From the NCBI GenBank assembly GCA_029964075.1, contig CM057147.1:23953513-24017512 (forward strand): 64,000 nt of DNA, given 5' to 3'. Positions 1 through 36,524 of this stretch are shown one piece after another; within the stretch, counting starts at the first letter, position 1, and the number at the start of each line of letters is the position of its first letter. Made by a program: the position numbers and the translations under genes. This stretch comes from Patiria pectinifera (Eukaryota > Echinodermata > Asteroidea > Valvatida > Asterinidae). The notes below the pieces were generated by a model, which ran no database searches, was not told where the DNA came from, and was given only the letters and a program-made list of their open reading frames with translations.

Positions 1-99
1 GTTCTTAGACCAATTAAGGGATGTGCTGTATTTGTAATGGTTGTGTGAGCAGACATCAGGCCTGTTGCATTTTGCTCTGAAGGATTTTTCACACTATCC

Positions 100-316
100 A
101 AAATATCTGTGTTGAACCCGGAGCCCAACACAGAGATTTTGGGAACCTCTAAGCTTCTACATGTACATGAGGCCAGTGCTCTACACGGGTAGCACTCAAA
201 CCTTGCTTGGGACCTGGGCTGAGAGGCTCTACCCCGGGTAGAAAACCCAAAACCTACAACTGACCCCATGAACAACCCCGGGTAGATGTGAACAGTATGC
301 CCTGCCTACCAGTGTT
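100..316 (-). repeat. Single copy of the 210-230 bp repeat unit
   Basis: On the minus strand this matches the units tandemly arrayed at 52900-53840: a GGGGTCAG..GTAGAT core, then TACCC..GGGTAGAGC, then a segment ending in CACTGG and ATAGTGTG. The allelic copy lies at about 37590-37820. No coding potential is evident. Confidence 0.7.
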
Positions 317-661
317 AGGCCCCCCAAAAAAATATTCGGTCTCTGGTCAGACCAAAGTTCCGGAATTGACGCGGGGACGCGGCTTTTTTTTTTTTTTTTC
401 CAAGCTTGGATTGTACAGACAAGGTGGAGTACTATTTTGCAATTTGGTGTCCTCCACAATTTGCCTTGGTGCTCTCGATCATTTGCCTTGGTGCAATTTC
501 CCATTCCTTGGTGCTCTTTGGTAAAAAAAAATTGAGGAGGAGCAGCAATAGAGGGCGCTGTTGGAGCGACCACGGAACATTTTGAAAAAAAGAAAGATTG
601 ACACGCATGATTAAAATCGACGCGCGCGCTGACCAGAGACCGACTTATTATTTTTTTTTGC
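317..661. mobile_element. Haplotype-specific MITE-like insertion
   Basis: About 345 bp are present here and absent at the allelic site near 37590, where GTGTTA is followed directly by AATGG. Both ends carry the inverted motif CGGTCTCTGGTCAG (about 335-350 and 628-645), preceded by A-rich or T-rich tracts. The empty site reads TTAA, so a TTAA-type target duplication is plausible, although the right-hand copy here reads TTCA. No transposase is encoded. The superfamily is unknown. Confidence 0.65.
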
Positions 662-1496
662 CTTCAATGGAACCAAGTAACATATGCAGTGGGCCCCTGC
701 TGACTTTAAAGCCTGGTTTCTATATCGACGTTAAGCTTATGCAGACAGTACGCGCGCGGAACAGTCGGCAAAATTGAACCGTGTTCAACTTTGCCGATCG
801 TCTGCAAGGTAGTTTGCGACTGTCTGAGTTGTCGGCGACGCTTCAGGATGAAATGTTTCTGTATGTCTGCGTTGCAGTTTGGGTCCTTTTTGCACTTTGA
901 GGTTTCTTACGTCGATATGGAAAGTAGGCTTTATACTGGTAGAAAACCATAGTGTGAACAATTCCTCAGTGTAGTCTGTCACGGGTGGCTATACTGACTA
1001 TATTAAGTCGGGAAAATGAACCATAATAATCCATGACTAAATATTTTGCGATCAAACTCTGAACAATACCATGACAGGAAATGAAGCTGTGAATCCATGA
1101 GGAAATAAAACTGTGTAATGTCTTAATACTGTTTATCCAAGCCACATGTGTTTTTTAAACTAAACATTTCCCCAAACCATTAAAGGTACATGTACATTGG
1201 ATCATTTCCTTTTTGTGCATTTTTATCCTCATTTGAACAACAAAGTTGCTCAAAAATAGGGTGCATAGCAACTAACCGGTTGAACTTTCAGCTCAACTAT
1301 AAATCTTGAGAAAACAGCGACAAACTTACGCAAAACTGTTTGTACTCGCAACTGCATTCTGTTGCAAATGCACATTGAAAAAATAAGTAATATTCTGAAA
1401 CCACCTTCAACGTTTCAGAATAACACCATTTCAGACAAAGTAATTTCACTGAGTATTTGATGCCAGTCCTGCCATCACATTTAGCAACGTTTTTGT

Positions 1497-1728
1497 GGGC
1501 AATTCCACGGTTACTCACGTTACATTTTTGATGTTCTTTTGAGTTCCCTTGGGCTGTAATTACCTTACTGAAAAGGTTTAAATAACTGTTATCCCCATGG
1601 TAGATAGAGTAGACCTAGACCTACCTAAGCACCAAAGATGACACCCAGAAAAATGTGTTATAAACAAGACGCACAAAATCGTTTACTCACGTTACAAAAA
1701 TGTAACGTGAGTAACCGTGGAATTGCCC
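1497..1728. mobile_element. MITE with long inverted ends
   Basis: The element begins GGGCAATTCCACGGTTACTC and ends with the reverse complement. About 34 bp at each end are inverted repeats containing TCACGTTACATTTTTG. Positions 1683-1714 hold a further perfect 14-bp palindrome (TTACTCACGTTACA and its complement around AAAA). It encodes no protein. The other copy is at 36525-36758. Confidence 0.7.
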
Positions 1729-1957
1729 TTGTCAATAAATCAGCAGGTATTGTTACTGCTAACTGCAAATGATCCGAAGTCCTTATCTGAGCGATTGCTA
1801 TCACAATGCTTCCATGCACCATTGAGAGGGTAATATCATTGCCTACAAATGAACTAGTGCAACAAGGTTATACGGGATTGACAGACTAGTGATGGGGAAA
1901 TCATGTCACTTTGTGAAGAGAAGACAATTAAAGAGAGTTATTTGCTCCAAAGCTGGG

Positions 1958-2272
1958 AGTAAACGGGGAGTCAGGTTGGAGTCGGGGAGTCAGGTTGGCG
2001 TAGCGGTACTTTCCTCGCCTTCCACCGCTGTGACCCGGGTTCGAATCCGGCCTGGGCCAATATGTAGATTAGGTTTTCAGCCCCTGCCTAATTCCATGGG
2101 TTTTCCCCAGAATATTCTTCTGGGCTTTTCCTCCCACCTCTAAAACTGTAATTTCTTCTCATTGTCTTCTCTCCACAGGTTTCTTCAGGCTTGCGAGCTA
2201 CAGTGCCTAGGGCGCTTTTGAGGAATCCTTGGTTTCATTACCAGAAATGATTAATAATAATAATAATAAACA
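1958..2272 (+). mobile_element. tRNA-derived SINE (family 1)
   Basis: The head resembles a tRNA with an A-box-like TGGCGTAGCGG and a B-box GGTTCGAATCC. The body contains CCCCAGAATATTCTTCTGGG-like sequence and the tail is (TAA)n. Further copies lie at 26782-27040 (+) and 35971-36285 (-, the allelic counterpart). The head is preceded by a short duplicated GGGGAGTCAGGTTGG segment. Confidence 0.75.
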
Positions 2273-2559
2273 AGAAATAACTTTGACACTTTTCAAGAAA
2301 TGTAGATAACCTGTGTGTCAGACTCGATAGAATTCATGTGTCTTGCTTTTTAGAAACAAACTATTGTGTTACAAAAACTATTCTGGTAAGTAGCGCATGA
2401 GCAGAAAGTTAAACTACGCAAGCAGCAGGCACTGACAACATGTGTATGTGGTCACCAATGCACGTAACGGTTCAATGTATCGGCAACTCCTATTGGCTTC
2501 AATCTCGACCCCAAAACTGTCGACATCATCCCTAACACCAGTCCTGCCATGTAGGATAT

Positions 2560-2860
2560 CATTACAGAGTTGCGGTCAAGTGCTCGTAGGTTTTCACAAG
2601 TTTATCACAAGTCATTCTCAAGATGCTCAGTCTCAAGTCATATGGTGTGAATATGCTACAAAAGGGATGTATTCGAGTCAAATTAAGTCCAGTCACAAGT
2701 TAATCACAAGTCCATCCAGAGTGGATGAACAATAACAAAAGAAATGGCTTTGCCTAGGCTCATGTGAGTAGCTTGTGAGTTGAATTGGGACCGGAGGACT
2801 TGTGATGGACTTGCAGGGACTTGTGATGCACATCCCTGTGCTCCTAAGACACTGTAATGG
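2560..2860. repeat. Cluster of TCACAAGTC/GACTTGTGA motifs
   Basis: The short motif TCACAAGT(C) or its complement occurs many times, irregularly spaced and in both orientations. The allelic copy at about 35385-35670 shows the same pattern. It may be a degenerate old satellite or a foldback element. No function is assigned. Confidence 0.4.
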
Positions 2861-3021
2861 TTCATCCTCAGTTACTTGCTACCTTTTTTTTTACTTGAGC
2901 TGTGATTTCACTTGAGATGACTTCTGATGGATTTTGAACTCCGACTCAGTTTTTGCTTTGGTCAAGGTCAATCAGGACCAATCAGGCAAAGTTTCTAAGT
3001 AATCAATCCAAGTGCTAAATA

Positions 3022-3423
3022 TCAAACGAATGAATACTGGTTTTTGACGGCCCTGGTTGACGAGCCCCTACCCTGGCCGTCCAGAGGGGAGGGCGACTGG
3101 CCGCCCGAATTCATGGACAGGGAAAACTGGCTGCCGGAGCCGAGGAACTCGTTGGATGAGACCATGAGGGAATTGGAGTTGCCCAGCCCCCGGCCGTTGC
3201 CGCCCGCCTCGGGGGTCTGGGGCGTGAGAGGGGTGCTAGGGGTGCTGACCGACTGGGCGTTGGGCACGTACTCGGTCAGCGTGACGTCCGGCTGGCTGGC
3301 CCCGTCCCGGCTGTCCAAGGGGATGGGGTTGGAGCGGAAGTAGTCCAGCATGTCGATGATGCTCTCGAACCACATGTGGGTGACCTGGCACCGGCCGCTG
3401 CCGTCCAGAGTCAGTCGGAGATG
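3022..3423 (-). CDS. SH2B last coding exon, second (allelic) copy
   Basis: This is a 402-bp exon with the acceptor CAG at 3424-3426 and the stop at 3022-3024, exactly the length of the exon at 34821-35222. It encodes the C-terminal half of the SH2 domain (HLRLTL..., MWFESIIDMLDYF) and the C-terminal tail ending RAVKNQYSFV. At least one residue differs from the other copy (LGNSNS against LGNANS). Because it sits in the inverted haplotig it is probably an allele, not a second gene. It is intact, with no frameshift. Confidence 0.85.
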   Translation of the reverse strand, partial: HLRLTLDGSGRCQVTHMWFESIIDMLDYFRSNPIPLDSRDGASQPDVTLTEYVPNAQSVSTPSTPLTPQTPEAGGNGRGLGNSNSLMVSSNEFLGSGSQFSLSMNSGGQSPSPLDGQGRGSSTRAVKNQYSFV

Positions 3424-3671
3424 CTGTGGAAGGAAAAAAAAAAGGAATAAGGAGAGAAATGGATGAGTAAGACTTTCAAGAAAGAAAAAAGCGACAGGGG
3501 TGAATTATAACAGTTTTTAAACTCAGTAATGGGTGATGAAGTAAGTTCCATTGCAAATTTGTACACATAAACTATCTCTTGATATAACAATATTTCTTGA
3601 TCAAACTTGCTAAATGATAAAATGATATTGGATGTTACTTTGAATTCCTGTATGATGATGAACCCTATTTT

Positions 3672-3903
3672 AAATTTTAAATGCTTATATAGCGCTTTCC
3701 ATTATTCCCCCATTCATCGTGCCACGAGACCACGCGGTCTTCTACTCTTGCAGGTACCCATTTATACTCCTGGGCGGAGAGAGGCAAGTGTACGGTAGAT
3801 AAGTGTCTTGCCCAAGAGCACAAACACATGTTCCTGGCGGGGTTCGAACCCATGTACCATTGTACATGAGTCAAACACTGTAACCACTGGACCATGGCAT
3901 TCT
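3672..3903 (-). mobile_element. tRNA-derived SINE (family 2), absent from the other copy
   Basis: On the minus strand a tRNA-like head (GTCCAGTGGTTAC, B-box GGTTCGAACCC) is followed by CTTGGGCAAGACACTT, CCCAGGAGTATAAATGGGTACC and AAAGCGCTATATAAGC. Relatives lie at 25517-25780 (+) and 46478-46858 (-). The allelic intron near 34290-34670 holds unrelated sequence, so the insertion is specific to one haplotype. Confidence 0.75.
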
Positions 3904-5339
3904 GCACGTTCTACACTATTTACAGGGTCAGAAATTTATTCTACCTCCCCTGCCTGCTGGCCTGGTTTGACTAAATTTTGATTGAACATGATGGACTTGG
4001 GCCAGGAGGCCTGAAGCACTGCTGGGGAATTCAACAAATTTGCAGAGCATCCTGTACTGCTGTTATCATATAAGCCATGTGTACGAAGTCCATCCATATC
4101 TACCAGCACTTCAATGGTGGATTTCATTTACTTTCATGGTCCTTTACTTAGTAAAAGTAAGTAAGGAGCTACGGTTAATTCTCAAATAGGGTTTACTGGA
4201 ACGTGTTTGTTTACTGAAAGTGTTCAGGATTCTAAGATTTGTGCAATGCATGATTGGTTTCAGTAAACTACTGTGAGCTTTCCGAGTACTTCATAGAAGC
4301 AACTGCACTGATCTGCAAGCCAGCTGCCACTTTCGCGTAATTAAACGATTCTTTCCAGCGTGCCGCTTGCACTGCCAAGCAGTGATAAATATTACATGCA
4401 TTTTTTTTCCCCTAATTAAGTCAACCACGAAGTGTGACAGACTATGTGTCGATGCCATCTGTGGCCGCCGGTGCATGGAAGCGCACACGTTCAGTTGCTG
4501 TATTTCTCAGAAGACAGAGAATTAAAGTTGGGGAAAACGTACACGACATTAAACCTCTGGTGACCAGATTTTTTTCGCAGTACAGGATACAGGAATTCCC
4601 AAATGAGAATTCTGTGGATTTTTTTTTCATGGAAATGTTTTCTAGAACACAGATAAAACTTAGTATCTTTGTTTTGTTTTTTTCAATTCTCTACAAGTAC
4701 ACTGACTGTATTAAAACTTTGTTTTGATGTGTTGTTTGAATAAATAGAAGGTTGAAAAATGCCTGCTGTTCTCTAATGCACTGGTCATTTTCTAACTTTT
4801 CAGGCATGCAACTTGGAAGAAACAAAAAACGAGGAAACTCCAATCTTTACCAGACTTTGTTCACCGTTTTTCAATTTTGAATGGCATAAGTGTGAAGTGA
4901 AAAACGAGGAAATCAGCTGATCCGAGGAAAAGTTGCATGCCTGTAAAGTATAATGAGATTGCTATGGACAATTTCAAATTAGTATGGGCGTCAGTGCAGT
5001 TTTTTGTCGATTCCATCACAAGTTCAGCAGAAGTCTAGCCAAGATGAACAAAGGAATGCCTTTGTCATAGTTTATGTGAACAGCTCGTGACTTGACTTGA
5101 GACTGAAGGACATGTGATGGACTCAACTATACAACCTTCTGAGAGGAGGATTTTCAGGTGTGTTCATGCGCATGGCATCACAGACAGTGATGTTGGGGCC
5201 AGCTAGTCCAGAATTGGGTGACAAGCGACAAGTACCGGTAGTAGCCTGCTGGTGAACCATAGAACACTCAAGTCAACCTCACCTCCACGTGGTTCACCCT
5301 GGAAACTAATCACCAGTGTTAATCTAACAAGGCTCTGGC

Positions 5340-5660
5340 TAAATGGTAGTCTGAGTATTACCTGTTCTCCACGAAGCCCTATCTCCGGTTGAACATCTGA
5401 TATATCTAGGAATGCGAATTTATGCGACACCGCGCGCCAGTCAATCGGAGTAGACGTTACTAGTTTTTGACGTCATTTCATTCCCAAATCAGGACTAAAA
5501 CTGTGATTGGTAGATTCGGATGCATTTTTTTAAAAATACAACAACAGCTGAGTGTGCATGGATCTACAAAACCTAGACACAACCGTGATTGGCAGGCTCT
5601 GTTATTGCCGGCATATCGCGTAACATATCGTTACAGAGCGCGTGACCGCAAACTTTTTTG
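5340..5660. repeat. Interspersed repeat shared with 47365-47610
   Basis: Shared blocks include TCTGATAT..., AATTTATGC..., CCAATCGGAGT-like sequence, TGACGTCATTT, CCAAATCAGGACT and CATATCGCGTAACAT. The allelic copy is at about 32580-32920 in reverse. It is likely a non-autonomous element; the ends are not resolved and no coding capacity is seen. Confidence 0.6.
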
Positions 5661-5819
5661 CTCAATTCACACAGCGTGTCTAGGTTTTAGTTATAGACGA
5701 GACCCGATATAGAAAGCGCCCGCTGATTGGCCAAAATCTAGAGGTCAAGAGGCTGCTGTCTTGCATAATTAATCAGCACATCGGCTCACATATGATAGAC
5801 CCTTGCCTATTACATAGAC

Positions 5820-6157
5820 TAGCTAAAGGAAGGAAAACCCCGAAAAAACAAACCAACTGCAGTGGGCCAACAACCCAGCCCAGTTCAACTTCTTGTTACG
5901 AAAACTGCAAGTGATTCTCAAACATTCCTAGCTGATGCTGGAAGGGGCTACGGGGAGGCGACTACCAAATCCCAGAGGATGACAACATCAGATTTGTAAG
6001 ACAGAATGATGCCGCTGAGAAGGAGGAAAGTTGGTGGCCCTAGAACGACGTGGAGGCAAACCATCGAGAAGGAAAGGAACACAGTTGGAGGACTTGGAAT
6101 GAAGCCGAGCAAGTAGCTAGAAACAGAGCAGTCTGGACAGAGTACACTGCAGCCTTA
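5820..6157 (+). pseudogene. Non-LTR retrotransposon ORF2 C-terminal remnant
   Basis: Short stretches in two frames resemble the extreme C-terminus of LINE-type reverse-transcriptase polyproteins: GGPRTTWRQTIEKE in one frame, then WNEAEQVARNRAVWTEYTAAL in another after a frameshift. The reading continues beyond the inserted element at 6158-6693 into 6694-6735, where the last residues and a stop follow. This is a frameshifted, interrupted fossil with no intact protein. The allelic copy is at about 32100-32460 on the minus strand. Confidence 0.55.
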
Positions 6158-6693
6158 AGGTGCCCTCAGGTCGACTCACGATTTGCTTGCGCCGCGACCG
6201 AACCGTCGGCATCAAGTAGAAAATAAATGCTCAGATTACAAAACTGAGAGAAACTTTGTGATTCTCATAGGGCAAACAGCATCTCGGCGCAAAATAATTG
6301 CGAAACGCTCATGTCACCCATGACACGACGACGATTCTACGGCGTACACAGTCATGTGACTTCTTTAAGAATAGAGAAAGCATATTGATTACAATCAAAT
6401 GACATTCCACGGCCACACCAGCGGTTCATTCAGCCGTTTTTGCCAACGCTGATTGGCTACATGACTGCGATTGACTCCCGCCTGTCAGGAACACGTCGCA
6501 GAAGTTGAAATGTTTCTACTCTTGCGAATGTTGATTTTATTGAGTGCCGACTGATGCCGATCATCTTAATATCGTCGCAGTTACACTCAGGTTACACTCA
6601 GGTTCACGACGGTCATAGCTCAGGCAAAGCTAGATCCTGAAAAGTCAGTCGCAGCCTGATCTGTCTCATCACAAGGCCTACCTGAGGGCACCT
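6158..6693. mobile_element. PIF/Harbinger-like MITE in the LINE remnant
   Basis: The ends are AGGTGCCCTCAGGT and its reverse complement ACCTGAGGGCACCT, flanked on both sides by TTA, as expected of a 3-bp TWA target duplication. It is 536 bp and encodes no transposase. The allelic copy is at 31574-32099, flanked by TAA. It splits a retrotransposon fossil, so it inserted later. The superfamily is inferred only from ends and target site. Confidence 0.65.
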
Positions 6694-6858
6694 TTATGGA
6701 CCCCACGGCCCGAAGAAGGAAGATAAAGGCGAAGGTGTAAAAAAAAAAAGCTCGCTTTCAGCCTCAGCTTCAATTCTAATTTGAAATTCATCTATTGGAG
6801 CAGTGTTCAGTCCACATAATGCTCAAGCTGTTCAAGATCTCTGTTTTTTATATCTCAC

Positions 6859-7082
6859 CTTTGGCCTGCCGTGGAAGTTGAACGTCAGCACGCACTCCCC
6901 ACGCCGTGTCTCACTCTGTCTGACCAGGAACATGCCGTGGCTTGCGTTACCCCCCTGCAGGACCAGCTTGGCCGCGTCCACCCTGGACAGCGTACCGTGG
7001 AACCATAGGTGCTCATTGAGAGGGTGGTCGGTCACCGGGGCTGGCTCTTCTGAGTCAAGGTTGATGTTTTGATTTGATCCAT
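6859..7082 (-). CDS. SH2B exon with SH2 N-terminal half, second (allelic) copy
   Basis: This is a 224-bp exon, the same length and phase as 31185-31408. The acceptor CTAG lies at 7083-7086 and the donor GT at 6857-6858. It encodes the start of the SH2 domain ([17 protein letters not shown]) and the phosphotyrosine-binding FLVRQS motif followed by ETRRGE. The donor context differs from the other copy (GTGAGA against GTAAGC). It is intact and most simply an allele on the inverted haplotig. Confidence 0.85.
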
Positions 7083-9837
7083 CTAGAAAAAAAAATGCAT
7101 TTACTCTTTTTCAAATCATTATTTGGCCGTTCAGTTTACTTTTCATGATTGGATGGTTTGATGCAGTTGACATATTCCAGACAACACTGGTTTGAACCGG
7201 TTGAAACCACTTCCTGCTGAATAATATCTCACTGTGCGTGTACATACTGTATATATAGGGTCTTTCCGTATTTAATGGGGTACAATTGACTGCAAATTTT
7301 AGGTTTGAGAGTGGGACATGGAAGGTAAAACAAAGCGAGATATTTTGTTCAGTTTTTCCCTGTTCATTCGTGAGGCCTTACTGATCATACCCACAAAAAA
7401 TATAGAGGACTGTCTGTGTTCTTCAGAAATTACAGGGGTCATTGTAAATCATTACGTAACATGGACCAAATGTTCACTATTAATTGAGAGGACATTAATT
7501 ATCATGTGCATGAATCTACCCAAATTTCATCTCATTTATATTCATAACCCATTTTGGATTGTTAACAGCCAAAATAAACCCAATTTTTTTGGTCTTTAAG
7601 ATGTTTATATGTAACGGACGTAACTTTGACAGAAATCGTGTGACAAAGCTACGGTATGTCCATGTTACGTACATACTATTCTTCACACAATACCTTGTGA
7701 CATCTTAAATATGCATTGGTTTTTACAGGTAACAATGCTGTATGTAGGGATAAGAATGAAAAGGCACAATGTTTGGGTAAACATATTTATTGTAATTATA
7801 ACGTTCTATCAATATTAACAAACTTTCCGTCCATGTTACTACATGTATGTAACATTCCGAGCATGTGTAAAATCTAACTGTAAAGTTTTAAATTTTCAGT
7901 GAGCACAATCCTCAACAATGGGGTGGACATGTATAGTACAAGGAAAAAAGAGGACAAACAACTTGATATTATTATCCTGCTTCATTCCCAATCCCATGTC
8001 ACACTTCTGTACCCCTTTAGTGTGGAATGACCCACGTTCAGCAGTCACTGCTGAATGGAACGCGGTCACAGTGAGGTGCCTCCCTTTCATGCCTTTCAGC
8101 TACACGTAAAAAAACACACATACTATAGGAGGGTGTCATGGGTTGGTCTTACATGATCCAATTTTCTCACAAATATAGTGTACATTGTGGACTATGAGTT
8201 ATGTATAAATTTGCGTGACTGTTCTGTATAGGCTCTGTATAATTTACAAGTACTGCTGTGCAACTGGAAGGGCTTGTGAACTAAAAACACAATCTTGACT
8301 TAAAGGGAATGTACATCATTGGCTTTTGCTGTAATTTTTAGAAATGAACTATTTGAGGGGTTAGTACAATAGATCAAATATTGTTACACTGACTTGTTTG
8401 AAGTTTTGTGTTCGAAAATGCTGGAAAAACCAAGAAAAACAAAAATGCTCAAGTAGTCTGGTTCCCTGACTCAAGTACAGATAAAATGGATCAATTTATA
8501 AATGCCGGAAAATTATAAGGTAAGGGAACCAGTCTAGCTGGCCTGCACCCATTCATGAACATGTAACCAATAGCAAACAACATTTTGACTGAAAAAAATT
8601 TGTAAATTTGGAGCAGTAGTTGAAAAATAGTTAGGTTTGTATACAAAAATACCATTTTCTTGAAAATGACTTCACACCAGGTGCCATAATTTTACAGGAT
8701 GCTTTAGACTGTCATTTACCAACACCCTAGTAAGGTATTTTGTAAAAACTTGGTAGTTTTGTTTTTCGATGTTTGCAAATGTTGTATATTCCCTTTAAAG
8801 TTCAAAGGATGCATGGTTATGATCAAGACTTTTTGGAAAATGCTAAAAAAAAAAATTTTAGAAACTGTTTTTCAGAGAAAAAAAGAGAGTCATTATTTTA
8901 AATATCCTTAACGAAATACTATTTTTCCAACAATTTCAGGAAATACAGGAAAGTTTTGAAATTTTCAGGAAAACTTTCAATTAAGTTGGGAAAATAGGGA
9001 ACTCTAAACGTTCTTCTTTATAGCAAAATCGCACTAGATCTATTTCAAATATAGGCATTATTTCAATATATCATTTTTATTTACGTACTCTTTAGGAGGG
9101 TCGGGGCCAGAGGTGGGTTGGGGAATGAGGGGGTGGGTCACTGTGGGTGGGTTAGACAGAGATTTGGGGAGCCTGAAAATGCCCATTACTACATGTATAT
9201 GAACTTGCGATTCAGAAAAACAAAACGATTATCCACCAAAGACCCCGTACAAGCAAAGCACCTGTGATTCCTGCATAAAAACCTCCCACATCTGTCACCT
9301 CAACTTTGACACCCTAAACCCCGAGATCAGGAACACCACAGTCCTGTCAGGTTGACTTTGGCTCTGTATACAGCTGACAAAAACAGCAGTGCGAGTACTG
9401 CACTAGGCAGGATGTGAATAATACATGGTATGAATAACCCAGCAGTCTCTCTAGAAAACTGAACTGCAAACTTTTCTTTTGTACTTGGTTGCACAGGGAC
9501 CACCCCCAAAATGCAGCCATGCACATCAAACTGAGGCAACACCACCTTTAATGAGCGAGGGTGGAATCAGAAATGAAGGGGAATGAAAGGAAAGGGCTTA
9601 AGGGCACATGTGATGAATGTACTGTATGAAAACCTTGTGTTATGACTAAGCTTGTACATGTACAGTACTGTGAAGTTTATACACATGTACACACAATGTA
9701 ACACATTGTATATACAATTTACAAAGTGTAATATACAATGTATATAAATATTTCATTTGCTTGTTACATGTATGTCTCATACATACATGTCATGTACTTT
9801 TAACAAGTTATTTCTGTTCAATTAGTTTCCTCCTAAT
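7083..9837. other. Intron sequence of the allelic copy, no gene seen
   Basis: This is AT-rich intronic sequence matching about 28390-31184 in reverse. The part at about 7260-7900 is unusually similar between the two copies. A 93-codon open frame on the + strand (7318-7599) is intact in both but resembles nothing I recognise. Confidence 0.5.
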
Positions 9838-10074
9838 CAGTGGCGGATCTAGGGGGGCCGAGTGCCTAAAATGGAGGCGAAACCCGAACATCCAACCAGG
9901 CATTTCCTCATGTGGGTGAACATTTCTGTGTTTGAAACGATTAAATAACCAGTTGATAGCAGAAGCAACAGGGAAAAAGGACAAGACATATACAATATAC
10001 CTCCTAAAAAAAAAAATTGTGAAATATGGGGGGGGGGGGAGGGGGCACTGGCTCCCCCCCCCCCGGATCCGCTG
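9838..10074. mobile_element. Short MITE with GTGGCGGATC ends
   Basis: The element starts CAGTGGCGGATCTAGGGGGG and ends in CCCCGGATCCGCTG, so the ends are imperfect inverted repeats. CTAAT lies outside both ends and may be part of a target duplication. It has a long G/C homopolymer and no coding capacity. The allelic copy is at 28152-28387. A hAT-like origin is possible but unproven. Confidence 0.6.
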
Positions 10075-10325
10075 CTAATTCATATGTACCCCTATTGAAG
10101 TGTATGCAAGATACTTTCAATTTGATTCCCAACTGAAGTGTATTTCCACTTTCATTTTTCCCAAAAACAAAATTTCAAAGATAATTTCAAATACATTTGT
10201 ACTTTCAAACTTCGTTATTATTGTATAAAACATGCTGCCGTTCATAAACATGCATATTTATGACGCCAAAGGAATATTGACTTTGAAACTGCATGTGCAT
10301 CAAACATGGGCAGCGGTAAGTATAC

Positions 10326-10825
10326 NNNNNNNNNNNNNNNNNNNNNNNNNNNNNNNNNNNNNNNNNNNNNNNNNNNNNNNNNNNNNNNNNNNNNNNNNNN
10401 NNNNNNNNNNNNNNNNNNNNNNNNNNNNNNNNNNNNNNNNNNNNNNNNNNNNNNNNNNNNNNNNNNNNNNNNNNNNNNNNNNNNNNNNNNNNNNNNNNNN
10501 NNNNNNNNNNNNNNNNNNNNNNNNNNNNNNNNNNNNNNNNNNNNNNNNNNNNNNNNNNNNNNNNNNNNNNNNNNNNNNNNNNNNNNNNNNNNNNNNNNNN
10601 NNNNNNNNNNNNNNNNNNNNNNNNNNNNNNNNNNNNNNNNNNNNNNNNNNNNNNNNNNNNNNNNNNNNNNNNNNNNNNNNNNNNNNNNNNNNNNNNNNNN
10701 NNNNNNNNNNNNNNNNNNNNNNNNNNNNNNNNNNNNNNNNNNNNNNNNNNNNNNNNNNNNNNNNNNNNNNNNNNNNNNNNNNNNNNNNNNNNNNNNNNNN
10801 NNNNNNNNNNNNNNNNNNNNNNNNN
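10326..10825. other. Assembly gap of exactly 500 N
   Basis: Positions 10326-10825 are all N. The round length suggests an arbitrary scaffold gap and not a measured distance. It separates the inverted haplotig from the sequence that leads into the SH2B PH-domain exons. Confidence 0.98.
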
Positions 10826-14160: not shown

Positions 14161-14248
14161 TTTTATGGATCTTGAATGTGCCAAAACTTGATGATATGCC
14201 AGCATTTTGAACTGATTTTGTACATTTCTTATTTTATCTCATCTGCAG

Positions 14249-14350
14249 TCCAACAAACCAAGGAACGGCATCTTCTGCTTCCTAATAGAAGAAGCCAGAG
14301 AGACGACTGCACTGGAACTCCCTGAAAAAGAAAACACTTTTGTGCTGAAG
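14249..14350 (+). CDS. SH2B: SH2B-family adaptor: exon for the middle of the PH domain
   Basis: This is a 102-bp phase-0 exon between the acceptor CTGCAG and the donor GTGAGA. Its 34 residues begin SNKPRNG and include TTALELPEKENTFVLK, which is characteristic of the SH2B PH domain (the family has TTALEMPDRENTFVxK-like sequence). SH2B proteins are SH2 adaptors acting downstream of receptor tyrosine kinases, JAK2 and the insulin receptor; the PH domain contributes to membrane association. The preceding exon, which should carry the N-terminal dimerisation domain and first PH strands, is not found upstream in the window and may lie in the gap or beyond. Together with five downstream exons it gives a continuous 386-codon frame including stop. 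Confidence 0.9.
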
Positions 14351-16547
14351 GTGAGAATTACTTGAATAAACACAGTATGGGACACACAGTCGTGTTTTAC
14401 TATACTCTCGAGGACAATGCTTTGTGTTTCCCTTTGTCCCTGTAATATAACACTCTTCCATAGACTAAGCACACAAACTTACTACAGAGGACCGTCTCCA
14501 GCAAAAGACCCAACGCCCGAGGACTGAAAGGATCTGTTGTTCTCCCTTTGTGTGTCGGTCCTCGGGGGTTATGTAGAACATGTACACGTGTACATTGTTC
14601 TTGGTGTACAAGTGTTCACCATTTTCATTGTAGCATACTGTACATCTCTAGAAAGCAGTTTACTTAGCTGAGGGATGCATTTGCCAGTAATGCAAGCGCT
14701 GTCCCCTCGAGCTGTGTTCACTTGTACGTACTCATTTTTTCAAACCGTGGACGAAAAATACCAGAGAACAAAAGAGAACAATATCGTCCACGATTCCCAG
14801 CATACGTCCGCGATTGGGGTCGTGTACAAAACCTATGGGAGTCTTCCTAAAGAGAAAAAAGAGTATAAACAAACGAGGGACAATAGGACGTCCACGCTCG
14901 ACGGTGAACACACGTTTTGGGTGCATGTGTCTGTGGGCCTGTCAAAACCTCCATTTTTGTTATAGGGATATTGGTTTTATCATCTTGTCATTATTTGTTT
15001 CCACTTGGAAAAATCAACTATGAATTTGGCATATCTCAAAATGACGGTATGGAGAACATGTCTTAAAGATGGCTGCTCCCTGCTCTTCAGAAAAATGTTC
15101 TTCTAAGAAATTTAGGAGAAGCAAAAAAATTGTATGTTTTGTTTTAACAGAAAACTTTTCTTCTTATTTTGAACATCTTCAACCCTCTGAAAAAGGGCTT
15201 TCATATTGCGCACAAAGGAACCTGCCCTGCGAGAGCTGAACTTTTGTCGGGCCAGAAATAGTTTGAAGATTTTAAAGAAATAATTCAATTAATAAACATC
15301 AGTGGCTTTTCGTTCAGTGTCTGATTCAAAAGTGAATCACTTTAATATTGCTAGGGAAATAGCATTTGAAAAACAAGTCTAATTTTCGGGGTCAAACTCG
15401 AAGTAGCATGGGGAACGCATCTTTAAACAAAGTGATCTTGGATTAATATTAAACAGATAGTGCAAGTACACGAGTGGTCTAGATTGTTTGTCAAGTAATT
15501 TGATTAATTCCTAGGGAGTGGAGACTTTCTCAGGTTGTTTGGCCTGGGAAATTCCCGGTGGGGACTTTCTGAAGGAGATCTCCCAGGTCAAATATGGGGT
15601 CATCTTGGGAGGAGAGGGGGAGGTGGACGGTTTGTCAGCTCGGTCTTTGAAGGTCCTCAAGTGATAGCTGGCAGACATACATGTACGTGTGTGCGCTTAC
15701 ATATTGGCACTTATGGGGTACTGGGAACAAAGGGCAACAATAGGGACAATGGTACCCCGCAAGTCTATCTTTAGAAATTGAAGTACCCCATAACCGTAAC
15801 GCTATGGGTTTTGAGATTTCTAAGGAGACAAAGGAGAACAAAAGATAGGAACAAGGGTCGAACAATAGTGGTACCCCATAAACCCCATATGCTAAGTGTA
15901 TGTGTACCAACAACAGAGCTCAAATGCATTAATATTTTATCATTTTAAAACCCTCCCTCTCTGGCTGGCAATTTCAACAAGGCCAGCCCAGCAGTCAAAA
16001 TAAATCAAGTGACTGTTTTTTTTTATTTTATGAAAGTCCCTGCCCGTCTTCGTAAAGCAGGATTGACTAGCTGTGATAGTTTGAAACCTGATAATTATAG
16101 CTATGCTTTGGCTGTAGGAGATTGATAAGCAGCTGTTGCCTGCTTTTGTCTGTTGATGGAATTTGACTGTCACAGTGCCTACTAAGAAATATGATCTGAC
16201 TGTTGGTGACTAGCCTGTGTAAAAGGCATGGAAGGGGAACAGGATTGACATTTTGACTGATCAAACACAAGGAGGATTAGAACTAATGAAAACTCTTGAT
16301 AAACTCGGAACAAAAAACAATTCAACCAAATCAAAACCCCTAAAGTTTGCACTCGAAACTTGGTATGTACATATGCACACGTACATGTAGTACATGTACA
16401 CCACCATATTTAGGCCTGTCTGCGAATGTGTTGCAACGAGGTGCAGTTTATAAACAGAGCAGCTGTGGCCAGTAGTGTTTGTGTTGCTAAGTGGGCATTA
16501 ATTATTGATGGGTTTGTTTTAAATTTTTCGTTGAATTTTTTTTTCAG
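14351..16547 (+). other. SH2B intron with repeats
   Basis: It holds a palindromic patch around 15710-15885 with TTATGGGGTAC and GTACCCCATAA, and copy 2 of the interspersed repeat at 15953-16275. Short open frames here (for example 14675-14965) resemble nothing and are not supported as genes. Confidence 0.6.
15953..16275 (+). repeat. Interspersed repeat, copy 2 of 3
   Basis: This is the same family as 13840-14160. It shares GACTAGCCTGTGTAAAAGG and a GATTGATAAG..CAGCTGT block with the copy at about 22540-22840. It starts CCCTCC and ends near GGAGG. Confidence 0.6.
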
Positions 16548-16651
16548 GCAGAGAACAACCTTGAGTATGTCATAGAAGCGCAGAGTATGCAGGATATGCG
16601 TTCCTGGCTGACTAACATCACGGCCTGTATGAATATGCCTAATTTGCCAAG
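16548..16651 (+). CDS. SH2B: SH2B-family adaptor: exon ending the PH domain
   Basis: This is a 104-bp exon after a TTTTTTTTCAG acceptor, with donor GTGAGT. It enters in phase 0 and leaves two bases of a codon. It encodes AENNLEYVIEAQSMQDMRSW and then LTNITACM, matching the last strand and C-terminal helix of the SH2B PH domain (the conserved Trp of the PH helix is the W in MRSWL). The split codon completes correctly with the first base of the exon at 23789. Confidence 0.9.
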
Positions 16652-16874
16652 GTGAGTCGTCTGCATAGAGTTGAGGAACAACAGATACATGTAGATGGCT
16701 ACTGTCCCTTTATGGGGGTGGGGTCAGTTGAAGAAGGAGTGGGAGGTCATTGATCCCCTCCCATAATGTTTATATGCAAAGGAGGTGGAGCTATTGTAAA
16801 TTTAACATTGTTTGTTTGATTCCAATAATAGTTCTACTCGAAAATACTTGACACAATTTCAATTCAGGAGATGC

Positions 16875-25780: not shown

Positions 25781-25862
25781 TGACAGACCACTTTTTCTGC
25801 GTACATGTACCTAATAAAAAGAGCCAATATTTTTGCACTATATGAAATCTTCTTCCCAACAG

Positions 25863-26084
25863 ATTGGACAGCCAACAGCCCCAACAGCCCCCTTACACCC
25901 GAGAACTCTGGGGAGGGCTTCTCCAGTCGGGATCCAAGCCCACCTGCGTCCCCACCGCCCCGGATCCCGCCACGTCGCCGCCATGGTAACACTAACAGTC
26001 CGGATCGGTTGCCCAGCGGCGGCTCCGACACACCCCTGAGCCCTGACTTGCCCCCGCTGCATGATGCTCAGTCCAGAATCCTGG
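25863..26084 (+). CDS. SH2B: SH2B-family adaptor: proline-rich linker exon
   Basis: This is a 222-bp exon with acceptor TTCCCAACAG and donor GTGAGT. Two bases complete the Asp codon from 23892 and one base is left for the next exon. The 74-residue product is Ser/Pro-rich and contains PPASPPPRIPPRRR, a polyproline-plus-Arg stretch of the kind bound by SH3 domains, and several SP sites that could be phosphorylated. GC content is much higher than in the flanking introns. It corresponds to the variable region between PH and SH2 domains; identity rests on phase, splice sites and position in the gene. Confidence 0.85.
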
Positions 26085-26274
26085 GTGAGTATTTGGACTC
26101 AGAGAAGTGATGAAAACTTTGCTTGGCTCGTTACCCCCACGCTACCCAAGGCAATGACTCCCGTCACTAACAACTTGTGAAGGAAATAAAAATGTCACAA
26201 AGGATTGTGGGTAGTTAAGTCACATGTATCCAAAAGAGACCATGCAGGGAAGAATTTTGCAAGGAAAAGTAATA

Positions 26275-27040: not shown

Positions 27041-28151
27041 AAAAACAAGAAGAGAACAGTTAGCTGAAAATTGGCAACACGTAACCCCAATATTCAATTT
27101 GTAAACAAAAATGTAACACAGTCTATATGCCGGTTCATACCTGAAAGCAAACAGTGCACCTGAAAGCAAACACCAGTGCAAATTTCTCATGTACATGTAT
27201 GGCAATCAAACAAAAAACCATGTGAATACAAGCACTACAGAAAGACGCAGGAAAAACATGTCTACTCAGTATACACGCATGCCCAATGTTCACCAGCTGC
27301 ATGCACACATGTGCTAACCCAGAAAGTCAGACGACCTTGGACTTGTAGGCGCACTGCTGTTCAAGGTTGCCAAGTTTGTGAATGACAAACTCTGCTGGAC
27401 ACATAAAAGACCATGGTGCAGGGATTAGAAGGTCAAGGCAAGAAATCCCACAAGTGTTCTGTGGATAAAAAAAACCAACTTTTGTCATGAAGTTGCTACT
27501 TGTCTGGAACTTGAGTAGTGCCACACATGTACAGGAACACATTGCCTTGTTTTTCAATTGGGTTGTGGCAACCATAAAAGTGTTCTTCCATTTTGGAAGA
27601 AAAGTCGAGGGGACACTGGACAGTCCACACAGTTCTTAGTCCACACAGTCCTTAAAAACTTGTCCCTGGCCAGGGATACAATGCACATGTACATGTACTC
27701 AGTGGTTTGTGAAGCTGAAATCAAAGAATGGTTTGTAACTTGATTTGTACTTGGTGATTTGTTACAATTGTATTGTCAAGCCGAAACGCTCTAAGAGTTC
27801 TTAATTTAGAAAACAAATCTCAAAAAAATTAAAATGAAAAGACAACACACTTAGCATTTGCATTGGTTTTACAGTATTAAGCTGTTTTGAAATTTGGTTG
27901 GTATACTTACCGCTGCCCATGTTTGATGCACATGCAGTTTCAAAGTCAATATTCCTTTGGCGTCATAAATATGCATGTTTATGAACGGCAGCATGTTTTA
28001 TACAATAATAACGAAGTTTGAAAGTACAAATGTATTTGAAATTATCTTTGAAATTTTGTTTTTGGGAAAAATGAAAGTGGAAATACACTTCAGTTGGGAA
28101 TCAAATTGAAAGTATTTTGCATACACTTCAATAGGGGTACATATGAATTAG

Positions 28152-28387
28152 CAGCGGATCCGGGGAGGGGGAGCCAGTGCCCCCTCCCCCCCCCACCATA
28201 TTTCACAATTTTTTTTTTTAGGAGGTATATTGTATATGTCTTGTCCTTTTTCCCTGTTGCTTCTGCTATCAACTGGTTATTTAATCGTTTCAAACACAGA
28301 AATGTTCACCCACATGAGGAAATGCCTGGTTGGATGTTCGGGTTTCGCCTCCATTTTAGGCACTCGGCCCCCCTAGATCCGCCACTG
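28152..28387. mobile_element. Short MITE with GTGGCGGATC ends (allele of 9838-10074)
   Basis: Inverted ends are CAGCGGATCCGGGG and CCCCCTAGATCCGCCACTG. It differs from the other copy mainly in homopolymer lengths. Confidence 0.6.
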
Positions 28388-31184
28388 ATTAGGAGGAAAC
28401 TAATTGAACAGAAATAACTTGTTAAAAGTACATGTACATGTATGTATGAGACATACATGTAACAAGCAAATGAAATATTTATATACATTGTATATTACAC
28501 TTTGTAAATTGTATATACAATGTGTTACATTGTGTGTACATGTACAAACTTCAGAGTACTGTACAAGCTTAGTCATAACACAAGGTTTTCATACAGTACA
28601 TTCATCACATGTGCCCTTAAGCCCTTTCCTTTCATTCCCCTTCATTTCTGATTCCACCCTCGCTCATTAAAGGTGTTGTTGCCTCAGTTTGATGTGCATG
28701 GCTGCATTTTGGGGGTAGTCCCCTGTGCAAACAAGTACAAAAGAAAAGTTTGCAGTACAGTTTTCTAGAGAGACTGCTGGGTCATTCATACCATGTATTA
28801 TTCACATCCTGCCTGGTGCAGTACTTGCACTGCTGTTTTTGTCAGCTGTATACAGAGCCAAAGTCAACCTGACAGGACTGCGGTGTTCCTGATCGCGGGG
28901 TTTAGGGTGTCAAAGTTGAGGTGACAGATGTGGGAGGTTTTTATGCAGGAATCACAGGTGCTTTGCTTGTACAGGGTCTTTGGTGGGGATAATCGTTTTG
29001 TTTTTCTGAATCGCAAGTCCGTAATGGGCATTTTCACGCTCCCCAAACCTCTGTCTAACCCACCCACGGTGACCCACCCCCTCATTCCCCAACCCACCTC
29101 TGGCCCCGACCCTCCTAAAGAGTAAATAAAAGTGATATTGAAATAATGCCTATATTTGAGCTCCAGTGCAATTTTGCTTTAAAGAAGAACGTTTAGAGTT
29201 CCCTACCGGGTATTTTCCCAACTTAATTGAAAGTTTTCCTGAAAATTTCAAAACTTTCCTGTATTTCCTGAAATTGTTGGAAAAATAGTATTTCGTTAAG
29301 GATATTTAAAATAATGACTCTCTTTTTTTCTCTGAAAAACAGTTTCTAAAATTTTTTTTTTTAGCATTTCCAAAAAGTCTTGATCATAACCATGCATCCT
29401 TTGAACTTTAAAGGGAATATACAACATTTGCAAACATCGAAAAACAAAACTACCAAGTTTTTACAAAATACCTTACTAGGGTGTTGGTAAATGACAGTCT
29501 AAAGCATCCTGTAAAATTATGGCACCTGGTGTGAAGTCATTTTCAAGAAAATGTTATTTTTGTATACATTTCCAACGGTGGTCGGCCCACCACTGTTGGA
29601 AAAACCTAACTATTTTTCAGCTACTGCTCCAAATTTACAATTTTGTTCCGTCAAAATGTTGTTTGCTATGGTTACATGTTCATGAACGGGTGCAGGCCAG
29701 CTAGACTGGTTCCCTTACCTTATACTATTCCGGTATGGAGTCAGGGAACCAGACTACTTGAGCATTTTTGTTTTTCTTGGTTTTTCCAGCATTTTGGAAC
29801 ACAAAACTTCAAACAAGTTAGTGTAACAATATTTGATCTATTGTACTAACCCCTCAAATACATGTAGTTCATTTCTAAAAATTACAGCAAAAGCCAATGA
29901 TGTACACGTGCATTCCCTTTACGTCAAGATTGTATTGTTTCTACCTATAGTTCACAAGCCCTTCCAGTTGCACAGCAGTGCTTGTTAATTATACAGAGCC
30001 TATACAGAACAGTCATGCAAATTTATTCATATAACTCATAGTCCACAATGTACACTATATTTGTGAGAAAATTGGATCATGTAAGACCAACCCATGACAC
30101 CCTCATATTGTATGTGTGGTTTTTGTACGTGTACCGGTAGCTGAAAGGCATAAAAGGGAGGCACTTCACACTTGGACCGTGTTCCATTCAGCGGTGACTG
30201 CTTTGCACGTGGGTCATTCCACACTAAAGGGGTACAGAAGTGTGACATGGGATTGGGAATGAAGCAGGATAATAATATCAAGTTGTTTGTCCTCTTTTTT
30301 CCTTGTACTATACATGTCCACCCCATTGTTGAGGATTGTGCTCACTGAAAATTTAAAACTTTACAGTTAGATTTTACACATGCTCGGAATGTTACATACA
30401 TGTAGTAACATGGACGGAAAGTTTGTTAATATTGATAGAACGTTATAATTACAATAAATATGTTTACCCAAACATTGTGCCTTTTCATTCTTATCCCTAC
30501 ATACAGCATTGTTACCTGTAAAAACCAATGCATATTTAAGATGTCACAAGGTATTGTGTGAAGAATAGTATGTACGTAACATGGACATACCGTAGCTTTG
30601 TCACACGATTTCTGTCAAAGTTACGTCCGTTACATATAAACATCTTAAAGACCAAGAAAATTGGGTTTATTTTGGCTGTTAGCAATCCAAAATGGGTTAT
30701 GAATATAAATGAGATGAAATTTGGGTAGATTCATGCACATGATAATTAATGTCCTCTCAATTAATAGTGAACATTTGGTCCATGTTACGTAATGATTTAC
30801 AATGACCCCTGTAATTTCTGAAGAACACAGACAGTCCTCTATATTTTTTGTGGGTATGATCAGTAAGGCCTCACGAATGAACAGGGAAAAACTGAACAAA
30901 ATATCTCGCTTTGTTTTACCTTCCATGTCCCACTCTCAAACCTCAAATTTGCTGTCAATTGTACCCCATTAAATACGGAAAGACCCTATATATACAGTAT
31001 CTGTATGTACATGCACAGTGAGATATTATTCAGCAGGAAGTGGTTTCAACCGGTTCAAACCAGTGTTGTCTGGAATATGTCAACTGCATCAAACCATCCA
31101 ATCATGAAAAGTAAACTGAATGGCCAAATAATGATTTTAAAAAGAGTAAATGCATTTTTTTTCTCAAATTTTATTTTAATCTAG

Positions 31185-31408
31185 ATGGATCAAATCAAAA
31201 CATCAACCTTGACTCAGAAGAGCCAGCCCCGGTAACCGACCACCCTCTCAATGAGCACCTATGGTTCCACGGTACCCTGTCCAGGGTGGACGCGGCCAAG
31301 CTGGTCCTGCAGGGGGGTAACGCAAGCCACGGCATGTTCCTGGTCAGACAGAGTGAGACACGACGTGGGGAGTGCGTGCTGACATTCAACTTCCATGGCA
31401 GGCCAAAG
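31185..31408 (+). CDS. SH2B: SH2B-family adaptor: exon with SH2 N-terminal half
   Basis: This is a 224-bp exon with acceptor TTTTAATCTAG and donor GTAAGC. Two bases complete the previous codon and it ends in phase 0. After a short acidic linker it encodes [20 protein letters not shown] and [12 protein letters not shown] followed by [11 protein letters not shown]. WFHGxLSR and [12 protein letters not shown] are diagnostic of SH2B proteins; the Arg in FLVRQS is the phosphotyrosine-binding residue of SH2 domains. SH2B SH2 domains bind activated JAK2 and receptor tyrosine kinases. The phase-0 junction into HLRLTL matches the vertebrate sequence at this point. Confidence 0.95.
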
Positions 31409-31573
31409 GTAAGCTATCACAAACAGAGATCTTGAACCGCTTGAACATTATGTGGACTGAACGCTGCTCCAATAGATGAATTTCAAATTAGAATTGAAGC
31501 TGGAGCTGAAAGCGAGAGCTTTTTTTTTACACCTTCACCTTCACCTTCCTTCTTCGGGCCGTGGGGTCCATAA

Positions 31574-32099
31574 AGGTGCTCTCAGGTAGACCATGCGATG
31601 ACACAGATCAGTGGGCGACAGAGTTTTGAGGATCTAGCTTTGCCTGAGCTATAACCGTCGGGAACCTGAGTGTAACTGTGACGATATTAAGACGATCGGC
31701 AACAGTCGGCACTCAATAAAATCAACAGTCGCAAGAGTAGAAACATTTCAACTGCTGCGACGTGTTCCCGACAGGCGGGAGTCAATCGCAGTCATGTAGC
31801 CAATCAGCGTTGGCAAAAACGGCTGAATGAACCGCTGGTGTGGCCGTGGAATGTCATTTGATTGTAATCAATATGCTTTCTCTATTCTTAAAGAAGTTAC
31901 ATGACTGTGTACGCCGTAGAATCGTCGTCGTGTCATGGGTGACATGAGCGTTTTCGCAATTATTTTGCGCCGAGATGCCGTTTGCCCTATGAGAATCACA
32001 AAGTTTCTCTCAGTTTTGTAATCTGAGCATTTATTTTCTACATGATGCCGACGGTTCCGTCGCGGCGCAAGCAAATCGTGAGTCGACCTGAGGGCACCT
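31574..32099. mobile_element. PIF/Harbinger-like MITE (allele of 6158-6693)
   Basis: The ends are AGGTGCTCTCAGGT and ACCTGAGGGCACCT, with TAA on both sides. It is 526 bp, non-coding, and splits the same LINE remnant. Confidence 0.65.
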
Positions 32100-32460
32100 T
32101 AAGGCTGCAGTGTACTCTGTCCAGACTGCTCTGTTTCTAGCTACTTGCTCGGCTTCATTCCAAGTCCTCCAACTGTGTTCCTTTCCTTCTTGATGGTTTG
32201 CCTCCACGTCGTTCTAGGGCCACCAACTTTCCTCCTTCTCAGCGGCGTCATTCTGTCTTACAAATCTGATGTTGTCATCCTCTGGGATTTGGATGCCTCG
32301 TCGTAGCCCCTTCCAGCATCAGCTGGGAATGTTTGAGAATCACTTGCAGTTTTCGTAACAAGAAGTTGAACTGGGCTGGGTTGTTGGCCCACTGCAGTTG
32401 GTTTGTTTTTTCGGGGTTTTCCTTCCTTTAGCTAGTCTATGTAATAGGCAAGGGTCTATC
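32100..32460 (-). pseudogene. LINE ORF2 C-terminal remnant (allele of 5820-6157)
   Basis: The minus strand carries the same frameshifted WNEAEQVARNRAVW-type and GGPRTTW-type stretches as the first copy. It is not functional. Confidence 0.5.
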
Positions 32461-34820
32461 ATATGGGAGCTGATGTGCTGATTAATTATGCAACACAGCA
32501 GCCTCTTGACCTTTAGATTTTGGCCAATCAGCGGGCGCTTTCTATATCGGGTCTCGTCTATAACTAAAACCTAGACACGCTGTGTGAATTGAGCAAAAAA
32601 GTTTGCGGTCACGCGCTCTGTAATTATATATTACGCGATATGCTGGCAATAATAGAGCCGGCCAATCACGGTCGTGTCTAGGTTTTTTTGTAGATCCATG
32701 CGCACTCGGCTGTTGTATTTTTTGAAAATGCATCCGAATCTACCAATCACAGTTTTAGACCTGATTTGGGAATGAAATGACGTCAAAAACTAGGAATGTC
32801 TACTTCGATTGGCTGGCGCGTGGGTCGCATAAATTCGCATTCCTAGATATATCAGATGTTCAACCGGAGATAGGGCTTCGTGGAGAACAGGTAATACTCA
32901 GACTACCATTTAGCCAGAGCCTTGTTAGATTAACACTGGTGATTAGTTTCCAGGGTGAACCACGTGGAGGTGAGGTTGACTTGAGTGTTCTATGGTTCAC
33001 CAGCAGGCTACTACTTGTCGCTTGTCACCCAATTCTGGCCTAGCTGGCCCCAACATCACTGGCTGTGATGCCATGCGCATGAACACACCTGAAGATCCTC
33101 CTCCCAAAAGGCAGTGTTGTAGTTGAGTCCATCACAAGGCCATCAGTCTCAGTCAAGTCACGAGCTGTTTACATGAACTATGACAAAGGCATTCCTTTGT
33201 TCATCTTGGCTAGACTTCTGCTGAACTTGTGATGGAATCGACAAAAAACTGCACTGACGCCCATACTAATTTGAAATTGTCCATAGCAATCTCATTATAC
33301 TTTACAGGTATGCAACTTTTCCTCAGATCAGCTGATTTCCTCGTTTTTCACTTCACACTTATGCCATTCAAAATTGAAAAACGGTGAACAAAGTCTGGTA
33401 AAGATTGGAGTTTCCTCGTTTTTTGTTTCTTCCAAGTTGCATGCCTGAAAAGTTAGAAAATGACCAGTGCATCAGAGAACGGCAGGCATTTTTCAACCTT
33501 CTATTTATTCAAACAACACATCAAAAGAAAAGTTTCAATACAGTCAGTTTACTTGTAGAGAATTTAAAAAAAATAACAAAGATACTAAGTTTTATCTGTG
33601 TTCTAGAAAACATTTCCATGTAAAGAAAAATCCACAGAATTCTCATTTGGGAATTCCTGTATCCTGTACTGCGAAAAAAATCTGGTCACCAGAGGTTTAA
33701 TGTCATGTACGTTTTCCCCAACTTTAATTCTCTGTCTTCTGAGAAAAACAGCAACTGAATGTGTGCGCTTCCATGCACCGGCGGCCACAGATGGCATCGA
33801 CACATGGTCTGTCACACTTTGTGGTTGACTTAATTAGGGGAAAAAAATGCATGTAATATTGATGCGTGGCAGTGAAAGCGGCACGTTGGAAAGAATCGTT
33901 TAATTACGCGAAAGTGGCAGCTGGCTTGCAGATCAGTGCAGTTGCTTCTATGAAGTACTAGGAAAACTCACAGTAGTTTACTGAAACCAATCATGCATTG
34001 CACAAATCTTAGAATCCTGAACACTTTCAGTAAACAAACACGTTCCAGTAAACCCTATTTGAGAATTAACCGTAACTTCTTACTTACTTTTACTAAGTAA
34101 AGGACCATGAAAGTAAATGAAATCCACCATTGAAGTGCTGGTAGATATGGATGGACTTCGTACACATGGCTTATATGACAACAGCAGTGCAGGATGCTAG
34201 CAAAATTCATTGAATTCCCCAGCAGTGCTTCAGGCCTCCCGGCCCAAGTCCATCATACTCCATCAAAATTTAGTCAAACCAGGCCAGCAGGATCACGTCC
34301 CCGCAAAAGCCACCAAATGGGGGAAGGGGTGGATTTTGGAGTTGTTAAGGTTAGGGCTAAGGCTGTTAATCTAACTGTTCATGAAAAAAAATCCTGAAAA
34401 GGACTTGGCATTTACAGATGGTTGCAGAAGTTTTTGAGAGAAAAAATTTGAATTGTTTGCAACTTTTTTGAAAGATGTTTTCACAGTGGAAGTTTTCCAG
34501 GAATTCTCATCACAATTTTGACCAATGAATATTCAACTTTTCGTATGGTTGACAACCTTCCAGTACATACATGCGCATTTATGTGTATGGGAACGTTAAG
34601 CGGAGACGGGATTTGCATTACTTCTTCGACACAATTTCATCTGCACCCATGGATACATGTTGTCATGATAGTTCATGTGTACAAATTTGCAATTGAACTT
34701 ATTTCATCACCCATTGCCATTATTGAGTTTAAAAAACTACGTTATAATTCACTCCCATTCTTTTATTCTTTCTTGGAAGTCTTACTCATTACTCTCTCCT
34801 TATTTGTTTTTCTTCGACAG

Positions 34821-36285: not shown

Positions 36286-36524
36286 GCTTGGGAGCAAATA
36301 AATCTCTTTAATTGTCTTCTCTTCACAAAGTGACATGACTTCCTCATGACTAGTCTGTCAATCCCGTATAACCTTGTTGCACTTTTTCCCTGTTCATTTA
36401 TGGGCAATGATATTACGAAGGCCCCTCTCAATGGTGCATGAAAGTATTGTGATAACAATCGCTCAGATAAGGACTTCGGATCATTTGCTGTTAGCAGTAA
36501 CAGTACCTGCTGATTTATTGACAA

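Follow-up and report, generated by a model that had tools for sequence, protein, structure and literature searches.

We analysed a 64,000-nucleotide window of the starfish Patiria pectinifera (assembly GCA_029964075.1, contig CM057147.1; C19:23953513-24017512), in which the 3' region of a gene for an SH2B adaptor is found twice, in inverted orientation, with a gap of 500 N at the end of one copy. This arrangement is best explained, with a probability of roughly 0.96, as an assembly artefact, in which both haplotypes of one SH2B locus were kept in one pseudochromosome and one contig was placed backwards. Contigs are lettered A, B, C and D in their order from left to right along the printed scaffold, which is split by 500-N gaps. 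Contigs A, B and probably D would represent haplotype 1 and contig C haplotype 2, and the scaffold would then join A, B, C and D in this order by 500-N gaps with B reversed. The true order for one haplotype would most likely be A, reversed B and D, and C, the allelic counterpart, would extend from a point within A to one within D. The assembler may have kept the copies apart owing to high heterozygosity and noisy contig ends, and the misorientation of B may have arisen in the Hi-C scaffolding.

Positions outside the window are given on C19 or as 'full' positions, a full position being the C19 position minus 23,795,000 and a window position being the full position minus 158,512. The sequence was scanned for gaps over 280 kb around the window, which contains two of them, and over a further 16 kb (C19:24099001-24115000), which contains the third, and contig C is taken as unbroken across the 24 kb that were not read (C19:24075001-24099000). 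The three gaps of 500 N each are located at C19:23872338-23872837, 23963838-23964337 and 24104900-24105399. Contig A ends on the right at full 77337, about 81 kb left of the window. Contig B (C19:23872838-23963837, full 77838-168837; 91,000 bp) extends from about 81 kb left of the window to window position 10325. Contig C covers full 169338-309899, its first base being C19:23964338 (window 10826), and contig D starts at C19:24105400 (full 310400). The parts of the window that concern this arrangement are as follows.

1-10325, minus strand: right end of contig B, haplotype 1 in the wrong orientation, allelic to 27901-37905.
318-665: 348-bp mobile-element-like insertion, found in A and B (haplotype 1) and missing from C at the corresponding place in the global alignment.
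3577-3952: block of about 375 bp that A and B share and in whose place C has unrelated sequence (34292-34666).
10326-10825: scaffolding gap between contigs B and C, exactly 500 N.
10826-64000, plus strand: start of contig C, haplotype 2, whose first base matches contig A at C19:23841732.
27901-37905, plus strand: stretch of contig C that is allelic, in reverse, to 1-10325.

A blastn search of window 1-10325 against the window gave reverse-strand pieces at 1-317, 666-3576, 3953-8472, 8505-8638 and 8638-10325, which are collinear with 37905 down to 27901 and show 90.5-96.2% identity per piece. The global alignment of 1-10325 with 27901-37905 contains 9290 matches, 550 mismatches (94.4%), which include the replaced block at 3577-3952, and 58 small gaps. 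The inverted match is not a matter of chance, because the final 60 bases of contig B before the gap are identical to the sequence from 27901 on and a single shuffled copy gave no match at E 1e-5. These results agree with the initial annotation, which had reported a match up to the last base before the 500 N, equal exon lengths and splice sites (225 and 399 coding bases were compared, with SH2 exons in both copies), and scattered single-nucleotide differences with several insertions. It had also regarded the first contig as wholly contained, in reverse, in 27901-37910. This is correct for window 1-10325, which matches 27901-37905 reversed, but not for the contig, since the first base of the window is no contig end, B being 91,000 bp long, and the reverse match to C extends leftward beyond the window through most of B.

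The overlaps among the contigs reach well beyond the window. Full 46732-77337 of contig A matches contig C directly from its first base (169338), with 28,336 of 30,606 bases covered; contig B in reverse matches C at full 186413-264675; and the last 12.3 kb of A (full 65012-77337) match the right end of B reversed. The chain between B and C covers 63,285 of the 91,000 bases of B, a count that omits the left 5.9 kb of B, which match C too, as a second tandem copy. Over 17 of the 31 matching pieces, the aligned columns of B and C number 51,056 and contain 1,443 substitutions (2.8%); the 14 pieces dropped from this figure lie in the left tandem units of B and in the repeat and zinc-finger arrays. 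Homology reaches the terminal base at five of the six contig ends beside the three gaps, and the sixth, the right end of C, is repetitive. We also counted copies in a genome set of 1,020 sequences (613.5 Mb), from which some small scaffolds of the published assembly are probably absent and in which a search for COX1 gave no match. One full-length place was found for the 1.7 kb that border the A-C overlap on the left (80 matches, the rest short repeats), two for the first bases of contig C (41 matches), two for a stretch in the interior of B (42 matches) and three for the right end of B (40 matches). Such copy numbers of 1, 2, 2 and 3 agree with the prediction of overlapping haplotype contigs.

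A real inverted segmental duplication, that is, a large palindrome of the 3' half of SH2B on one chromosome, would also bring inverted copies together in the scaffold and would leave exons intact in both the B and C copies, as is seen. On the other hand, a true duplication of this kind needs a unique flank for each copy, and no such flank was found at five of the six contig ends, where homology stops only where the sequence stops. Moreover, its breakpoints would coincide with the 500-N gaps, the three copies form just two sequence classes, B being private at only 11 of 848 variable columns, and the exon for the N-terminal phenylalanine zipper (Phe_ZIP) is single. We therefore regard it as very improbable. 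The same low probability is given to a recent, real arrangement of several copies, with an inverted duplicate of part of the SH2B locus on one chromosome and with gaps that would only show where the assembler broke at the repeat.

The sequence classes come from an alignment of A, reversed B and C, in which 10,714 of 11,562 ungapped columns are identical in all. Among the 848 variable columns, C differs from a common A and B state at 538, A alone differs at 294, B alone at 11, and all three differ at 5. Thus, A and B belong to a single haplotype and C represents the second, because the 538 differences from C are common to A and B and only 11 are private to B. The 1-kb bin with the replaced block holds 212 of these 538 columns, and the remainder are spread over all other bins. 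A and B, but not C, likewise have in common the 348-bp insertion and the block of some 375 bp that is replaced in C. Over the first 2,500 alignment columns, A and B differ at 0-3 columns per 500. The events private to A amount to 0.8% at a distance of 11-12 kb from the gap and climb to 7-9% over the last 3.3 kb, and private small indels number 192 in A, 17 in B and 89 in C. Judging from this pattern, the end of contig A looks like poorly polished long-read sequence of the haplotype of B. Since A and B are one haplotype and overlap over 12.3 kb, B can continue A only if it is turned round. One might suppose instead a real inversion polymorphism, in which the B stretch of haplotype 1 would be inverted with respect to haplotype 2, and B is indeed printed in reverse relative to C. 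However, contig A, which is of the haplotype of B, enters the sequence of B for 12.3 kb in the orientation of C, so that haplotype 1 is collinear there, and we consider this explanation the least credible of all.

The gene itself supplies a further line of evidence for two haplotypes of one locus. Its exons in the window are as follows.

3022-3423, minus strand: SH2B last coding exon, contig B copy, with the second half of SH2, the C-terminus and the stop.
6859-7083, minus strand: SH2B exon for the first half of the SH2 domain, contig B copy (first base uncertain by one).
14216-14362, plus strand: probable SH2B PH-domain exon in an open frame, whose protein is the same on contig A (recognized by eye, no Pfam match).
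16509-16652, plus strand: probable end-of-PH-domain exon in an open frame, with identical protein on A (Pfam PH E 0.019, below the cut-off).
25784-26107, plus strand: probable SH2B linker exon in an open frame, 108/108 amino acids identical on A (by eye, no Pfam match).
31184-31408, plus strand: SH2B exon for the first half of the SH2 domain, contig C copy (first base uncertain by one).
34821-35222, plus strand: SH2B last coding exon with stop, contig C copy.

In the comparison of B with C, the SH2 exons have the donors gtaagc/gtgaga and the acceptors tctag and gacag/cacag, the first exon probably beginning one base in, after tctag, and the two copies show 11 synonymous differences and 1 non-synonymous difference. 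The best PDB matches of the SH2 domain are SH2B1, APS and SH2B3 (2hdv, E 1.6e-43); the list is headed by 2hdv, 8atk, 1rpy, 5w3r and three SH2B3 chains, and the next family reaches only 2.8e-14. The phenylalanine zipper exon is found on contig A (Pfam PF08916, 59.3 bits). The central PH domain is matched by PF00169 on one exon at E 0.019, below the cut-off, and is probably split over exons. The locus is similar to the SH2B/APS/LNK adaptor family in its zipper exon (PF08916) and in an SH2 domain closest to those of SH2B1, APS and SH2B3, and differs in that its PH domain is only weakly supported. On contig A, the Phe_ZIP, PH-like, linker and SH2 exons all lie on the plus strand, as they do on C from the PH-like exons on, and only B has the reverse orientation.

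The Phe_ZIP exon, the first of SH2B, has one match in the genome, on contig A at C19:23831848, about 122 kb left of the window start. The two SH2 exons together had 12 matches in the genome, of which 7 are at the SH2B locus (three copies, the first exon of A being matched twice) and the other 5 are weak matches elsewhere (E 4.5e-5 to 9.3e-4). There are thus three copies of the last two exons, of which the one on A (about 86-90 kb to the left of the window) carries frame shifts and those on B and C are clean. The first SH2 exon of A shows no substitution against B and four single-base losses, whereas B and C differ by five substitutions in the same exon; the errors in the SH2 exons of A are mostly single-base losses, several of them in G or C runs, and break the frame. 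Neither copy in the window is a complete gene, and SH2B appears to be an ordinary single-copy gene. The initial annotation had foreseen a spurious head-to-head partial duplicate, which is what the reversed B beside C produces, with three copies of the 3' exons in fact and not two. As to the true 5' exons, which it expected to be displaced, the zipper exon is not lost but is only on contig A, far from the window. The haplotig that it proposed, or an origin in unmerged haplotypes, fits the site pattern of A and B against C, the gaps and the single Phe_ZIP exon, and the wrong orientation of B is likewise supported. As A and B are one haplotype, which contig is called the haplotig is a matter of choice.

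Because the start of contig D matches both B (from full 90061) and C (from full 258732), the third gap repeats the pattern of the other gaps. D differs by 0.8% from the first tandem unit of B and by 1.5% from C, and by this comparison it is likely the continuation of haplotype 1. A 1.3-kb stretch located 2.2 kb in from the left end of B has 46 matches in the genome, of which 4 are full-length and all lie within the SH2B locus (two in B, one in C and one in D), the others being partial and some on unplaced sequences. The left end of B carries a tandem unit of about 6 kb (C19:23872838-23885244), read in about 2.1 copies in B, which differ from each other by about 1-3%, and in one copy each in C and D. 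This array is possibly a haplotype-specific difference in copy number and a likely cause of the contig break.

It is also conceivable, though unlikely, that the scaffolder or a curator cut B out of a longer input contig, which may have been a fold-back chimera with C. Its length of exactly 91,000 bp is what a cut at fixed bins would leave, with a chance of about 1 in 1000 per contig by our reckoning. However, homology switches exactly at the gap on both sides, where a bin cut would not fall by design, and no full-length copy was found in the genome outside the SH2B locus for the 1.3 kb near the left end of B or elsewhere for the 1.7 kb left of the A-C overlap. The duplication is false either way, whether B is a cut fragment or a free haplotig.

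Several observations weigh against two haplotypes of one locus, or against parts of the order proposed for them. The largest stretch of B without a match in C is 12.3 kb (full 130522-142812), which must be a difference between haplotypes. In 2 of 27 bins of 500 columns (0 and 2500), B is almost identical to C, and A lies at about the same distance from each, which does not favour the pairing of A with B there. The second SH2 exon of A shows four substitutions against B besides gaps, which we take as errors. The B-D overlap is not identical, with the 0.8% mismatches to the first unit of B, so that the B-D step is only likely. The right end of C is repetitive, with a second copy about 40 kb past the start of D, a nearly as similar full-length copy on C6 and long ones on unplaced sequences, which makes the C-D overlap tentative. 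Finally, duplicated BUSCOs are 2.1% in this assembly (PMC10511450), a value which suggests that conserved genes are seldom hit by such duplication. As a separate observation, the 12.3-kb stretch of B contains two 749-bp inverted repeats, 99.9% alike and about 2.9 kb apart (C19:23928759-23933121, full 133759-138121), and this pair looks like a young transposon insertion.

According to the genome paper (PMC10511450), the assembly was made from Nanopore reads with NextDenovo, NextPolish, Juicer, 3D-DNA and Juicebox, and comprises 22 + 1,458 scaffolds with 40,468 predicted genes. The same source gives 615 Mb assembled against a k-mer size of 426 Mb, and a k-mer estimate of heterozygosity of 5.16%. 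In a term search of its main text, the word parts 'purge', 'haplot' and 'redundan' had no occurrence, and a literature search for reports of false duplication in this assembly gave none naming Patiria pectinifera among the matches listed. At face value, the printed chromosome has three partial SH2B genes, an inverted duplication and no intact gene, because Phe_ZIP is found on A, where frame shifts break the SH2 exons, and the clean SH2 exons are those of B and C. The series of overlaps from A to D accounts for about 263 kb of the printed chromosome (C19:23841732-24104899). The biology of the locus is ordinary, but it is a trap for gene counting, and haplotype purging is needed before synteny, gene families or structural variants are counted from this assembly.

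Some other features were noticed along the way. C1:3288077-3293000 and C1:3436058-3441000 reversed, which surfaced by chance in the SH2 match list, are 96.7% identical (121 mismatches in 4,955 columns) and about 143 kb apart, with a divergence close to that at the SH2B locus. No N was found in the 15 kb examined there, and the pair is possibly a second flipped haplotig, as far as its sequence tells. A C2H2 zinc-finger open frame is located at window 49580-52066 on the plus strand, and the corresponding allele of contig B lies at full 145000-149058. Counted with a simple pattern, the fingers number 27 in the C allele (828 amino acids open) and 21 in the B allele (716 amino acids open), an apparent allele-length polymorphism within one animal; Pfam confirms C2H2 fingers on the contig C copy. 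Window 52950-53840 and 54209-55817 contain 229-bp tandem repeats and a 15-bp doublet every ~790 bp, and the matching stretch of contig B appears different in copy number.

False heterotype duplications are described as showing half read depth, gaps between the copies on one scaffold, discordant pairs and single-copy k-mers (PMC9516828). The SH2B locus is similar to them in that both alleles stand as paralogues in one scaffold with gaps between the copies, namely the gaps of 500 N that flank B and the one at C19:24104900. It also shows allelic divergence, with the 538/294/11/5 pattern and 2.8% between B and C beside a reported heterozygosity of 5.16% (PMC10511450), and partial duplicate exons. 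It differs from the described cases (PMC9516828) in the reversal of one contig, in the overlap of three contigs and in the error-like differences that one contig end retains. The tail of A together with B is one haplotype present twice, with error-like differences in A that rise to its end, which resembles a homotype false duplication, a class whose assignment needs read depth and k-mer multiplicity (PMC9516828). With the class assigned from gaps and allelic sequence, where the published criteria also use reads and k-mers (PMC9516828), the inverted SH2B copy is almost certainly a false heterotype duplication combined with a misoriented contig, and not a real feature of the starfish chromosome.

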